This document shows positions 7,267 through 29,876 of a stretch of 45,320 nt of DNA, in pieces (the stretch's first letter is position 1; every line of letters begins with the position of its first letter). The notes beneath the pieces are model-generated. The model was not told the origin of the DNA, made no database searches, and worked only from the letters and a program-made list of their open reading frames with translations. Origin of the DNA: Minisyncoccota bacterium (GTDB taxonomy: Bacteria > Patescibacteriota > Minisyncoccia > Phycocordibacterales > UBA1550); contig JAQTPS010000004.1 in NCBI GenBank assembly GCA_028712595.1, forward strand, positions 1 through 45,320. The letters are read 5' to 3'. Both the position numbers and the translations under genes were made by a program.

Positions 7267-7974
7267 TTATTTTAAATTGCCGGTGTGGTGATGGCGGGCG
7301 ACAATTGCTTTGTCGCTCTCGACCGCTCCATCTTTTATTTTAATAATTCGGTTTGCAAATCCCGCGGTCTCCGTCTCATGCGTCACCAAAATCACAGTTC
7401 GACCTTTTTTGTTGAGTGATTCAAGTATCTCCATAACCTGAAGGCCAGACTGTGAGTCAAGATTCCCGGTTGGCTCATCGGCAAAGATAACATTTGGGTC
7501 TGTTACAAGCGCTCTCGCGATAGCAACGCGTTGTTTTTGTCCGCCAGAGAGTCTACCAGCTTCAGTGTGGATTTTATCTTCGAGCCCAACTGCTTTGATT
7601 GCATTTTCAATCAAGCCCTTTCTTTTTGATGAAGGAATATCTGAATACAAAAGAGGAATTTCGACATTGCTATAAACAGTAAGTCGAGAAAGAAGATTAA
7701 ACGACTGAAAAACAAATCCCATATCTTTGTTGCGAACGCGCGCAAGCTCATGGTCCGTCATATCGTCGATACTTTTTCCTTGAAATTTGTAAGAACCCCC
7801 GCTTGGTCTATCTAAAAAGCTAAGTATGTGAAGAAGCGTTGACTTGCCAGAACCCGAAGGTCCCATGATAGAAACAAACTCTCCCTTTTCAACAGAAAAA
7901 GTCACGCCACGCAGGGCCTGCGTTGGTGTTTCTTCTTCAAAATATTCTTTTTTTAAATTGTTTACCTCAATCAT
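7267..7974 (-). CDS. ABC transporter ATP-binding protein, MacB/LolD type
   Basis: A 235-residue nucleotide-binding subunit. Walker [10 protein letters not shown] (38-46), Q-loop Q90, signature LSGGQ (142-146), Walker [13 protein letters not shown] (162-173) and the VTHE switch His are all present, so it should hydrolyse ATP. The [12 protein letters not shown] start and [16 protein letters not shown] stretch are typical of the MacB/LolD branch. Its start overlaps the end of the adaptor gene by 4 nt, indicating translational coupling. The C-terminal tail ([10 protein letters not shown]) has three consecutive His, origin unclear. Confidence 0.93.
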
Positions 7975-9524
7975 TGTGCCTTAAGTCCGATATTGATAAC
8001 TTGTTCTCCGAGAGTGACGCCGGAAGTCACCTCAACGTTTCCTTTCTGGTCTTGTATGCCGAGGGTCACAGGATTTTGTTTTACCTGATTGTTTTCAAAT
8101 GTTTTCACAAATGTTCCTTGGTCGTCTTGTAGGATGGCATATTGCGGAAGAATGAGCACGTTATCCTTATGCTTTGTTTGTATCTCAATATTTGCTGTCA
8201 GACCACTCTTTAGTCGTGGGTCGGGCTTGCTGAATGAAATTTTGATTTTATAATTTACAACTCCTTGGGTATTTGTTTCTGCTGGAGCGATATAAAACAC
8301 AGACCCTTCAAATGTTTCGTTGAAGAAAGCATCCAGTGTCATTGTAACTGTATCGCCGACCGAGACCTTGCCAATATCAGTTTCAGAAACGCCAGCGTCC
8401 ACTTCGTATCCTGCGTCCGACATTATAGAAACAAGTGGTACGTTCGGCGATGCAAGCTGTCCTATTTTTGCGTCAAACTGCGTGATTGTGCCACTGATAG
8501 GCGCGACAATCTGCGCATTCTCCAGTTTAGCCAAAACGCTCTGAACGCTAGCTTTTGCCTGCTCGACTTGTGCCTCTTGCGCGGATATGTCGGTTGATAA
8601 AGACCCGGCATTTTTGAGGTCAAGTTCTGCCTGCTTCTGTGTCACGACCGCTTCCTTTTGCGCGACCGTAGTACTTTCTGTTGTTAGGGCAGAGTTATAA
8701 AGATTTAAGTTTGTGATGTATGTACTTGCTTGCGTGTTTGGCATTGGTATCTTCCAGCTTGCTCCCGAACCAATATTGTAGCCAGCAGGGAAGGAAATAT
8801 AGAGCCCACTTGTTCCGAGCGGAACTGAATTTGTGCTTACGGGCCCTGTTCCCGAGACAAGTCCACTGGCATTGAAATATCCCTCTCCACCACTTACAGT
8901 ATCAACCGTGATTAAACCCTCCGCGTCTCCTTCATAAGTTCCTGAAATAGTTGGCGCAGTGGCTGTCGAAGCAGTAGTCCCGGTATTTATAGTCGAGTAT
9001 GCTGTGATACTTGAGTTTAAGAGCGCGCGATGGGCGTTTGCTACGAGTGTTGCTTGTTGAGCCTTAGTATTTTCTAAATCAATTTTAGCGTTGGTCAAAC
9101 CTATTTGAGCAAGGTTGATATCTTCTGGTCGTGATCCGTTTTGTAAACCGTCGAGCCGAGCCTGTTGCGCATCAACGGTTGCCTCTGCTTGACGAAGTTG
9201 GGCAATAAGGTCGCTTGTATTTAGCTCTGCCAAAACTTGTCCTCTATAGACCTGTTTCCCGAGATCGGAATAAATATGAGAAATAGTGCCACTGCTACCA
9301 AAAGACAAAGACACATCTTGAGTAGGGGTGGTGTTTCCAGTGAGAGAAACTGATTCGACGATTGATCCTTTCTCTACTGTTACGAATTGGTATGTTGTGC
9401 CCCCGCGGAAAAATAGAAGATAACCACAAACAAGCACGACGAAGGCAACTATTATACCAACTCCGGTTTTTGTTTTGAGTAATTTTTTGGAAGTCTTTGA
9501 AATTGATGAAAATATTTTTGACAT
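7971..9524 (-). CDS. HlyD/MacA-type adaptor protein with an inserted beta-rich domain
   Basis: A 517-residue membrane-fusion-type protein anchored by one N-terminal membrane segment (about 22-38). The lipoyl-like half motif (76-104) leads into a coiled-coil helix (104-175); the returning helix spans about 270-338, followed by the second lipoyl half (APISGTITQFDAKIGQLASP), a beta-barrel and a membrane-proximal domain. Unusually, the tip of the helical hairpin is replaced by about 90 Gly/Ser/Thr-rich residues (176-268). In diderm MacA that tip docks TolC; in a cell probably lacking an outer membrane it may do something else. It is expected to work with the adjacent ABC pair. Confidence 0.85.
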   Translation of the reverse strand: MSKIFSSISKTSKKLLKTKTGVGIIVAFVVLVCGYLLFFRGGTTYQFVTVEKGSIVESVSLTGNTTPTQDVSLSFGSSGTISHIYSDLGKQVYRGQVLAELNTSDLIAQLRQAEATVDAQQARLDGLQNGSRPEDINLAQIGLTNAKIDLENTKAQQATLVANAHRALLNSSITAYSTINTGTTASTATAPTISGTYEGDAEGLITVDTVSGGEGYFNASGLVSGTGPVSTNSVPLGTSGLYISFPAGYNIGSGASWKIPMPNTQASTYITNLNLYNSALTTESTTVAQKEAVVTQKQAELDLKNAGSLSTDISAQEAQVEQAKASVQSVLAKLENAQIVAPISGTITQFDAKIGQLASPNVPLVSIMSDAGYEVDAGVSETDIGKVSVGDTVTMTLDAFFNETFEGSVFYIAPAETNTQGVVNYKIKISFSKPDPRLKSGLTANIEIQTKHKDNVLILPQYAILQDDQGTFVKTFENNQVKQNPVTLGIQDQKGNVEVTSGVTLGEQVINIGLKAQ

Positions 9525-11225: not shown

Positions 11226-11429
11226 TTGGAATTAATGTGAGATGCGGTCACGAGTTACTAATGAGCCCAAGATGAGAGATTCTCCCTCGAGTTTCCCCTC
11301 GTCGTCACTCGGAGAACTCTGGGCACTGCCTCGCTTGTTTTTTCTGCTGAAAAAACATAGCTCCGGCATTCGAATCTCACACGGAAGTCGTGCAGACGAC
11401 TTCCTATCCTCCGCTTTCGCGGGCTCAAG
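11226..11429 (-). repeat. Composite tRNA-trailing repeat element C (behind tRNA-Ser ACU)
   Basis: In tRNA sense: a short GC-rich hairpin (11411-11422), an inverted acceptor stem, a 23-nt hairpin insert with arms GGAAGTCGT/ACGACTTCC, and an inverted T-arm (about 11369-11381). Then come GCCGGAGCTATG, the TTTTTTCAGCAGAAAAAA hairpin, GAGGCAGTGCCCAGAG...GAGTGACGACGAGG, TTAGTAACTCGTGACC, and a closing direct copy of the tRNA end (GCATCTCACATT). The hairpin insert is identical to that in element D. Confidence 0.78.
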
Positions 11430-21000: not shown

Positions 21001-21291
21001 AAGATTGAGAGGAGGTGAGATGCGGTCACGGCATAAGGAGAGATTCGCCCGCGACTAAATTTTTGCCGTCGCAAAAATTTGTCTGGGCACTGGCTCGTCT
21101 ATTTTAAAGCCGGAGGAGAGATTCTCCTTCGAGTTTTTCTTCGCCGTCGCTCAGAAAACTCTAGGCACTGCCTCGCTTGTTTTTTCTACTGAAAAAACAT
21201 AGCTCCGGCATTCGAATCTCACACGGAAGTCGTGCAGACGACTTCCTCTCCTCCGCCAAATCAAAAAACCGCCCCTACGGACGGTTAGATT
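21001..21291 (-). repeat. Composite tRNA-trailing repeat element D (behind tRNA-Ser UGA)
   Basis: No gene is seen. In tRNA sense: a terminator hairpin, inverted acceptor stem, the same 23-nt hairpin insert as element C, an inverted T-arm, GCCGGAGCTATG, TTTTTTCAGTAGAAAAAA, GAGGCAGTGCCTAGAG, a T-arm copy (GAATCTCTCC), CGAGCCAGTGCCCAGACAAA, a TTTTTGCGACGGCAAAAA hairpin, a second copy (GAATCTCTCC), then GTGACCGCATCTCACCTC, closing with a copy of the tRNA end. Three module boundaries each repeat the tRNA end. Confidence 0.8.
21263..21288 (-). terminator. Intrinsic terminator of tRNA-Ser(UGA)
   Basis: AACCGTCC / GGGGCGGTT stem (minus strand) with a short loop, followed by six T. It is the loop of the palindrome formed by the tRNA end and its inverted copy. 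Confidence 0.75.
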
Positions 21292-25528: not shown

Positions 25529-25915
25529 CAGCTAAAAAATACTGCTTTAGGGCAGTATTTTTGTTGACGCTGTGCCCCCGGTTGGAATCGAACGGGAGGG
25601 GGTCGGGGAACGGTAGTTCCCCGTGGAGGAAAACAACGAGCGAAGCGAGTGTTAGAAACCGTGGGTTTCTAAAGAGCCCGAGTGAAACGCGGGCGAGTTC
25701 GATAGCGAAGCGTCCAACCAGTTGTGCCGGGCGTAGCGATGTTTTGCGAGCTCGCAAAACCGCGAGCCGGGGTCGCGAGTACTTACATTTTTTGCGAATT
25801 TATGAAGCAAAAAATTTAGTAACTCGTGACCACAAGCGTCACCACAGAAAACAACGAGTGAAGCGACGGCGAGTAAAATATTCGTGACCACAAATTATCT
25901 CCATTGTTTTTCTTT
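25529..25915 (+). repeat. Composite tRNA-trailing repeat element E (behind tRNA-Arg UCU)
   Basis: No gene is seen to 25980. After the terminator, 25571-25593 is a perfect 23-nt inverted copy of the tRNA end (25508-25530). Then follows a GC-rich stretch with several small hairpins (GGGGAACGGTAGTTCCCC, TTAGAAACC...GGTTTCTAA), a split T-arm copy (GTTCGAT...TCCAACC, 25697-25719), GTAGCGATG, TTTTGCGAGCTCGCAAAA, CGAGCCGGGGTCGCGAGTAC, TTTAGTAACTCGTGACCAC and a second ATTCGTGACCACAA end. The inverted copy is not split by a hairpin here. Bases 25916-25980 show no gene or feature. Confidence 0.75.
25534..25563 (+). terminator. Intrinsic terminator of tRNA-Arg(UCU)
   Basis: AAATACTGC / GCAGTATTT stem with a TTTAGG loop, then a T run. 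It is placed between the tRNA and the inverted copy of its end. Confidence 0.8.
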
Positions 25916-25980: not shown

Positions 25981-26053
25981 GGGCGATTAGCTCAGTTGGT
26001 AGAGCAGCGCTTTTACACAGCGAAGGTCAGGGGTTCAAATCCCTTATCGCCCA
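25981..26053 (+). tRNA. tRNA-Val (UAC)
   Basis: 73 nt: acceptor GGGCGAT/ATCGCCC with discriminator A, D stem GCTC/GAGC, anticodon arm GCGCT-TTTACAC-AGCGA (anticodon TAC, G-A mismatch at 27-43), T arm GGGGT-TCAAATC-type. It reads GUA and other Val codons. CCA is not encoded. Two perfect 144-bp repeats start inside its 3' end. Confidence 0.93.
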
Positions 26054-26340
26054 CAAATATTAGCTCCAAATGCGGAGCATTTGAGCTGTATATTTGTGTG
26101 GCGATAAGGGATTTGAAAGCCGGAGCGCGACGGCGCGAGGCGGGGTCGAGGAATTTTTCAGCAGAAAAATATCCGTGACCGAATCCCTTATCGCCCACAA
26201 ATATTAGCTCCAAATGCGGAGCATTTGAGCTGTATATTTGTGTGGCGATAAGGGATTTGAAAGCCGGAGCGCGACGGCGCGAGGCGGGGTCGAGGAATTT
26301 TTCAGCAGAAAAATATCCGTGACCGAATCCCTTATCGCCC
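26047..26340 (+). repeat. Element F: perfect 144-bp tandem repeat at the tRNA-Val 3' end
   Basis: Units 26047-26190 and 26191-26334 are identical, and the last ends in a third partial copy of the tRNA end (26325-26340). Each unit holds the tRNA 3' end, a hairpin AAATGC-GGA-GCATTT, an inverted copy of the tRNA end (TGGCGATAAGGGATTTGAA), AGCCGGAGCGCGACGGCG, GGAATTTTTCAGCAGAAAAA, TATCCGTGACCG and again the tRNA end. Each unit is thus flanked by 16-nt direct copies of the tRNA terminus. Confidence 0.92.
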
Positions 26341-26348
26341 CCCATACC

Positions 26349-27134
26349 ATGTCCTCAACTATCCAAATCCCCATCCTCTACGAAGATTCCGAAGTGGTTG
26401 TTATCAATAAACCAGCTGGTCTTGTTGTGCACCCTGACGGTCGCACCAATGAAGAAACTCTTGTTGATTGGATTTCCTCTCATTATCCAGATATCGCCCA
26501 AAAAGAAGTGGGTGAGTCGATAAAACTCACCGATGGAGGTGAAATAAAAAAACCAGGAGTAGTTCACCGCATTGACCGCGAAACTTCGGGCGTGCTTTTG
26601 ATTGCAAAGACCCAAGAATCTTTTTTTAATTTAAAATCGCAATTTCAAGCGCGCACAATAAAGAAAAATTACAAAACTATTTGCTACGGATTTTTCAAAG
26701 AGCCGAAAGGTATGATAAATAAAGTAATTGGTCGCTCTGCTAGCGATTTCAGAAAATGGTCTGCGGAGTTTGGCGCAAGGGGAGAGCTTCGTGAGGCCTC
26801 AACAGAATACAAAGTGCTGGGTCAAGGTGAAGTTGATGCTACTGAAAGCAAAGACAGGAGCGAAGGAGAAATAAAACTTTCATACCTTGATGTTTTTCCT
26901 CACACCGGACGCACACACCAAATACGTGTTCACTTGAAGGCGATTGGCCACCCTATTGTTTGTGACGCTCTTTATGCTCCGAAAATGCCGAGAGTTTTGG
27001 GCTTTAAACGCATAGCTCTCCACGCGTCCTCTATTGTCTTTAAACTTCAAAATGGGAGAGAAAAAAAAGTTGAAGCGCCCCTACCTCCCGATTTCCAAGA
27101 CGGTCTTGCCACGTTAGAAATCGCGGGCGTTTAG
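26349..27134 (+). CDS. RluA family pseudouridine synthase
   Basis: 261 residues. The motif HRIDRETSGVLLIAK (73-87) carries the catalytic Asp76; NKPAGLVVHPDGRTNEETLVDW precedes it, and DVFPHTGRTHQIRVHLKAIGHPIVCDALY is the second RluA motif. It isomerises uridines in 23S rRNA or tRNA; the target cannot be decided between RluA, RluC and RluD. There is no N-terminal S4 domain. The ATG at 26349 begins right behind the tRNA-Val repeat, so its promoter must lie in that repeat or transcription runs on from the tRNA. Confidence 0.9.
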   Translation: MSSTIQIPILYEDSEVVVINKPAGLVVHPDGRTNEETLVDWISSHYPDIAQKEVGESIKLTDGGEIKKPGVVHRIDRETSGVLLIAKTQESFFNLKSQFQARTIKKNYKTICYGFFKEPKGMINKVIGRSASDFRKWSAEFGARGELREASTEYKVLGQGEVDATESKDRSEGEIKLSYLDVFPHTGRTHQIRVHLKAIGHPIVCDALYAPKMPRVLGFKRIALHASSIVFKLQNGREKKVEAPLPPDFQDGLATLEIAGV

Positions 27135-29583: not shown

Positions 29584-29876
29584 CAAAATGACAACCCGCT
29601 TTATGCGGGCTTTGTCATTTTGGGTGGCTAAGCAAGCAATTGGTATTGCTTGCGTCAGGGAATCGAATGGCGGAGCGATGTTTTGCAAGCTTGCAAAACC
29701 GCGAGCCAGTGCCTAGCCCGAGCCGAGTGGCGACGAGGCGAGAGGCGAAGGAGATTCCCTGCACCCAAAAATAAAGCGAAGCGAAAATTATACCTAGTAA
29801 CTCGTGACCGATTCCCTGTAGCCCCCCAGACAAAACTTTTTGACGAAAAAGTTTTAGTCGAGGGAGATTACCTGTA
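29584..29876 (+). repeat. Composite tRNA-trailing repeat element H (behind tRNA-His)
   Basis: A terminator loop, inverted acceptor (29622-29630), hairpin insert AGCAAGCAAT...ATTGCTTGCGT (29631-29655), inverted T-arm (29656-29667), GGCGGAGCGATG, TTTTGCAAGCTTGCAAAA, GAGCCAGTGCCTAGCCCGAG, CGAGTGGCGACGAGGCGAGA. T-arm copy 1 (29753-29766) follows, then TAGTAACTCGTGACC with copy 2 (29810-29823), then CAGACAAAACTTTTTGACG...AGTCGAGGGA with copy 3 (29866-29876). It is the clearest example of modules each closed by a tRNA end copy. The next 49 nt to the ATG at 29926 hold only a promoter. Confidence 0.85.
29585..29621 (+). terminator. Intrinsic terminator of tRNA-His
   Basis: AAAATGACA/TGTCATTTT outer stem with inner CCCGC/GCGGG, then T residues. 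It extends into the inverted acceptor copy to make a very long palindrome. Confidence 0.75.

Follow-up and report, generated by a model that had tools for sequence, protein, structure and literature searches.

A perfect 144-bp tandem array behind tRNA-Val and a family of palindromic tRNA-trailing elements in Patescibacteria

Short, hairpin-forming, non-coding sequences that occur in many copies per genome, sometimes in tandem, are known as REP/BIME elements, which go together with RAYT genes flanked by the same repeat. Integrative elements that use att sites within tRNA genes, on the other hand, carry a direct copy of the 3' part of the tRNA, which runs from a T-loop position to about the 3' end. 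Mitochondrial mobile hairpin elements (double-hairpin elements, RHE), for which the parts of the account consulted here describe a multi-hairpin structure, spreading, and a location near tRNA genes and in rRNA regions, are mobilized by a mechanism that is uncertain (PMC2800124). Finally, in ODIRA, fork errors at short inverted repeats result in a direct–inverted–direct arrangement of the sequence involved (PMC4689423).

The window, i.e. the whole stretch of 45,320 nucleotides analysed here, holds on its plus strand a gene for tRNA-Val(tac) at 25981–26054 (ARAGORN; Rfam RF00005, 69.7 bits), from whose 3' part a perfect tandem repeat extends over 26038–26340 (TRF: period 144, 2.1 copies, 100% matches, 0 indels, score 606); apart from it, TRF lists a single tandem repeat in the window, of 20 bp. 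An earlier note on this DNA had described the 144-bp duplication with units at 26047–26190 and 26191–26334, which is one phase of the array confirmed here. It had also placed the anchor of the unit in the tail of tRNA-Val, and indeed AATCCCTTATCGCCC is present three times (26038–26052, 26182–26196 and 26326–26340) and bounds the units, with the first copy being nt 58–72 of the tRNA itself, i.e. its 3' end, and the third leading into rluA (ATG at 26349). The middle copy is a hybrid, since its left flank (GTGACCG) is that of copy 3 and its right flank (ACAAAT) that of copy 1. As the two units are identical, the recent origin proposed in the note is supported as well, and the best explanation of the array is one recent head-to-tail duplication of a tRNA-anchored composite palindromic element.

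A single unit (26038–26196) is composed of the direct tail (nt 57/58 to about 72), which begins in the T-loop of the tRNA, a hairpin whose arms extend the palindrome of tail and inverted tail (26053–26099), an inverted copy of about nt 54–71 (or 54–73) of the tRNA (GGCGATAAGGGATTTGAA, 26100–26117), a body of two hairpins, SL1 (GCC..GGC) and SL2 (GGTCG..TGACC), which is referred to as class I (26118–26180), and tail copy 2. Unit 2 (26197–26324, plus strand) is the same throughout, with the hairpin at 26197–26243, the inverted tail at 26244–26261 and the body at 26262–26324. Neither the inverted tail copy nor the conserved body had been part of the earlier account. Direct tail, hairpin and inverted tail make up one continuous stem, and the inverted tail is equally able to pair with tail copy 2. 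Compared with dinucleotide shuffles, a single unit folds with a z-score of −11.7 as DNA and −10.4 as RNA; with a fold so far beyond shuffles and a unit of the same plan behind tRNA-Val in several relatives, the array is not a product of chance.

The direct–inverted–direct order at 26038–26196, with a terminator or hairpin at one junction and the T-loop (often TTCGAA) at the other, resembles the outcome of ODIRA or tandem inversion duplication, in which junctions also lie at short inverted repeats (PMC4689423). These events, however, are one-off and affect large chromosomal segments (PMC4689423), whereas here tails of about 20 nt are involved at many tRNAs, and the junctions are not free of extra sequence, as a conserved body occupies the T-loop junction nearly everywhere and is missing at one tRNA. 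Unlike REP/BIME, the trails (as we call the sequences behind the tRNA genes) are anchored on tRNA genes and contain the tail of the tRNA at hand in both inverted and direct orientation, and none of their bodies was detected around 20 Y1_Tnp genes. With integrative elements they have in common that the 3' part of the tRNA is copied in direct orientation, starting at a constant point in the T-loop, but they are only 100–200 bp long, gene-free and found at nearly all tRNA families, and they contain an internal inverted tail; moreover, instead of one att site per element family, one body class is combined with more than 15 different tRNA tails in a single genome. Mitochondrial hairpin elements are similarly multi-hairpin, spreading and close to tRNA genes, but belong to eukaryotic organelles, and copies of tRNA tails are not described for them in the parts of the source consulted (PMC2800124). 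A mode of working like that of palindromic repeats or hairpin elements, i.e. REP/BIME or the mitochondrial elements, seems plausible; that the trails belong to REP/RAYT finds no support.

That the unit is one of a set of tRNA-trailing elements, as the earlier note had suspected, is borne out far beyond the window. All eight tRNA genes in the window have trails, and seven of the eight have an inverted tail copy. When this copy was defined as nt 54–65, found in the 250 nt after the tRNA with no more than one mismatch, and the tails of other (mismatched) tRNAs were used as a null, it was found behind 29 of the 48 tRNAs in the window's genome (null 0.4%), at 16/36 and 8/35 tRNAs in sister genomes of the same genus (nulls 0 and 0.5%) and, by the same criterion, at none of 30 tRNAs in an outgroup family. 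Direct tail copies, in many cases located after the body, number 65 among the 261 tRNAs of all fetched loci, i.e. stretches around tRNAs and hits, which is not a genome frequency because the loci were picked partly around elements. Their starts are narrowly placed, as would be expected of an integrase with a fixed crossover (nt 56 or 57 in 38 and nt 56–60 in 57 of the 65). Their ends vary, with most of them 2–4 nt past nt 72 and a minority at +13 to +68, and at five loci (L211, L214, L210, L223 and L224) the direct repeat continues after the tRNA and enters either its hairpin or a further hairpin, H. This small, conserved hairpin H, most often of 25 nt, lies exactly at the boundary between the inverted acceptor strand and the inverted T-stem in 19 of the 26 cases scored in genome G000.

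This one plan accommodates several bodies that are unrelated to each other, namely classes I to IV and, in genome G005, further ones. The commonest is class II, which in the window is represented by elements behind tRNA-His (29656–29767, plus strand; 118.8 bits with model R1), tRNA-Ser(tga) (21110–21222, minus strand; 115.7 bits) and tRNA-Ser(act) (11268–11380, minus strand; 116.0 bits). In an alignment of 22 copies, all from the window's genome, 91.6% of the cells of a 34-pair structure can pair, compared with 69.9% in shuffles, and both sides have changed at 26 of the 34 pairs, with a covariation score that was reached by none of 500 shuffles and that is abolished by sliding the partners. 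More weight attaches to the double changes, since the structure was derived from the same sequences and the percentage paired is therefore biased towards it. RNAalifold yields a near-identical fold, and the body also has invariant unpaired positions. The covarying changes can result from selection on the fold or from palindrome-correcting copying; as both yield compensatory changes, covariation is neutral with respect to a host function.

In the window's own genome, a DNA search found the class II body beside tRNA genes and nowhere else. Its covariance model, which can be used on other genomes, matches 72 of the 286 genomes of the class (E ≤ 1e-4) as well as genomes of other classes in the phylum. 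Of the best 19 loci outside the window's genome, 15 immediately follow a tRNA that matches the element ends in sequence, as do all five of the next set, two of which come from outside the class. Of the 19 class II matches listed for two distant genomes, 18 are located 20–126 nt downstream of a tRNA on the same strand (0.6% with random placement). The family is phylum-wide. In Rfam 15, the tRNAs gave the only matches above gathering score in the window, and the trail produced weak sub-threshold matches, mostly to microRNA models.

The class I body was found in 31 of 41 related genomes, located behind other tRNAs and a tmRNA, on both sides of a 5S rRNA gene and, in other cases, at a distance from any RNA gene. 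At the tmRNA gene, two class I trail units follow each other (L005, 1227–1465), and degenerate 5S copies on both sides of the 5S rRNA gene each hold a class I body, in opposite orientations (L008, 1086–1530). A class I body with inverted and direct copies of a gene's last bases also sits at the 3' end of what, by inspection, is an rplK-like protein gene (L017, 1430–1600), so the plan is not limited to RNA genes. Elsewhere, class I bodies occupy the centre of long inverted repeats (L104, 1920–2010; L011, 1480–1600), which suggests palindrome centres as preferred sites. In the window, the trail of tRNA-Arg(tct) (25530–25890, plus strand) consists of a terminator, a perfect inverted tail and a class IV body, followed by class II/III modules. 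Further module classes (III, GTCGAGAGTACTTAG..TTAGTAACTCGTGACC; IV, GGGGTCGGGGAACGG..) are mixed or nested within trails at 25761–25880 of the window and at loci L112 and L115, and bodies thus seem to be swapped between tRNAs.

What is found behind the orthologous tRNA-Val differs between relatives, all of which, in this comparison of the same locus, are other species. One class I unit is present in genomes G004, G026 and G030, several, nested or other bodies in G001, G006 and other Yonathbacteria, and no trail in several other Paceibacterota. Unit number is therefore not fixed across relatives, so that the fixed number which the earlier note had named as speaking against its reading of the array, as a direct snapshot of how trails grow, is not what is seen. 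Growth of units bounded by tail copies is also seen at other tRNAs: the block from tail to inverted copy is doubled with at most one mismatch at tRNA-Gly(tcc) of G001 (77 nt, L115) and at a tRNA-Arg (76 nt, L203), and two diverged units follow tRNA-Phe of G000. The snapshot thus finds parallels elsewhere, whereas for the site-specific insertion that the note had offered as one route no integrase-like site or enzyme was identified. As the block is duplicated around different bodies at the tRNA-Gly and tRNA-Arg, arrays grow by arrival of bodies as well. An inverted tail without a body at tRNA-Met and inverted and direct tails without a body at tRNA-Tyr are possible intermediates.

For the 144-bp duplication itself, the sequence makes hairpin-assisted slippage or unequal recombination between the 15-bp tail copies the probable origin. 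In an ancestor with one unit, two such copies 144 bp apart would misalign in replication or recombine between sister chromosomes, which would be promoted by the very strong hairpins in the interval. The product would be two identical units separated by a hybrid tail that is flanked on its left as copy 3 is and on its right as copy 1 is. The middle tail observed is exactly what an exchange within the 15-bp identity should leave, and, with both units identical, parsimony makes a whole-unit duplication simpler than two insertions. A second insertion of an identical unit would leave the same sequence, i.e. sequence alone has no power to separate the two.

How a single element arises is a different question, to which our answer is a weaker inference: template switching at hairpins might produce the direct–inverted–direct tails with the body at the T-loop junction, and new bodies would come in together with a duplicate of the block from tail to inverted tail. 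Template switching alone leaves two features unaccounted for, namely the exact location of several unrelated conserved bodies at the T-loop junction and the placement of hairpin H, and snap-back copying as the sole cause was rejected on these grounds. The simplest version of template switching also predicts a palindrome as the spacer behind tail 1, which locus L203 does not have. For the family as a whole, a tentative though serious candidate are structured elements, spread across the phylum and either enzyme-less or mobilized in trans, whose ends are remade from the target, so that each insertion would gain an inverted and a direct local tail, duplicate the block and thereby build arrays. If so, the trails would represent a mode of insertion for which known bacterial elements offer no described precedent, and the 144-bp array would be a fresh step of it.

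Against slippage or unequal exchange between tail copies, other explanations have to be weighed. A tyrosine recombinase could repeatedly place a small non-autonomous element at the T-loop, an event that would rebuild the tRNA and push its former tail aside, with a second copy arriving in tandem; direct copies with a constant start in the T-loop (nt 56/57) and an end close to that of the tRNA itself, as well as tandem units with different bodies (L115, L203), would fit this idea. Yet it is unlikely, as integrases are confined to one or a few att sites, while elements with the matching tail are found here at almost all tRNA families, an internal inverted tail copy is foreign to the integrase mechanism, an integrase gene is neither contained in the 144-bp unit nor seen linked to it, and an exact 29-mer of the class I hairpin, searched as a single pattern, is absent from IMG/VR viral contigs. 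Similarly unlikely, if slightly more so, is that the two-copy array represents an unresolved cycle in the assembly graph of a genome with one or more than two units. The source is a MAG assembly, the repeat including its overlap amounts to 159 bp and exceeds the usual short-read k-mers, and another contig of the same MAG stops inside an element of the same family (end of C31); the figure of exactly two units is therefore to be read with caution and may be an assembly count. Assemblers, however, usually collapse perfect repeats rather than expanding them, and perfect or near-perfect block duplications of 57–77 nt with differing flanks occur in independent assemblies (L203, L211, L115).

An improbable alternative is that the trail serves the host as a structured RNA or tRNA 3' trailer, i.e. 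a tRNA-like fold of acceptor and T-stem copies under selection, to which the duplication would be incidental. The covariation and invariant unpaired positions of class II and its location 20–126 nt behind tRNAs on the same strand agree with such a role, but the class II body usually lies after the tRNA terminator, sister species have differing bodies at the same tRNA, and a related body is also found away from tRNAs, with the tRNAs of some relatives mostly lacking any. Very improbable, finally, is an RNA-templated insertion, in which an element RNA pairs with the tRNA tail via its inverted copy and is reverse transcribed at the T-loop, so that the 3' junction would be precise, the 5' junction variable and the target duplicated over a long stretch. 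The direct repeat with one fixed and one variable end and the internal sequence complementary to the target are in line with this scenario; no reverse transcriptase (RVT_1, PF00078), however, is present in genomes G000 and G001, both rich in elements, and this enzyme was discarded as a candidate mobilizer.

A RAYT or Y1 transposase was likewise rejected. Y1_Tnp domains co-occur weakly with class I (in 24/31 genomes with and 3/10 without it), but none of the trail bodies (classes I–IV and the class I upstream hairpin) was detected in stretches of 2.6–4 kb around 20 Y1_Tnp genes (E 0.001), and these genes are flanked by private palindromes unrelated to the trail bodies. Many Y1_Tnp genes (L181–L200) are bracketed by such palindromes, e.g. 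TTGGCGGTTCAACCGCCAA, which are different for each gene.

Overall, a tandem duplication alone is ordinary, and the interest lies in the family behind the array. The family is apparently undescribed: the open-access (PMC) literature yielded no description of tRNA-trailing elements in Patescibacteria/CPR, which is weak evidence because subscription journals were outside the search. Patescibacteria have very small genomes, and yet many of their tRNA genes bear a structured and turnover-prone tail that is missing from Rfam. The family also shows that a non-coding element can be housed behind the 3' ends of a wide range of tRNAs with the tRNA left intact, and provides natural snapshots of hairpins as what may be drivers of duplication and inversion.

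With respect to inversion, two arrangements are worth recording. Upstream of a tRNA-Asp gene (L083; contig C22 of G000, about 7836–8020), a class II remnant and a tRNA-Asp tail copy are oriented opposite to the gene, which looks like a flip of the tRNA relative to its trail. Judging by the neighbours of rluA, the host of the window belongs to the Paceibacterota/Patescibacteria and is Yonathbacteria-like. In the window, tRNA-Val and rluA share a strand, whereas at every related locus at which tRNA-Val was found beside rluA the two are on opposite strands; tRNA-Val together with its trail thus seems to have been inverted, and the palindromic trails could have mediated this inversion.
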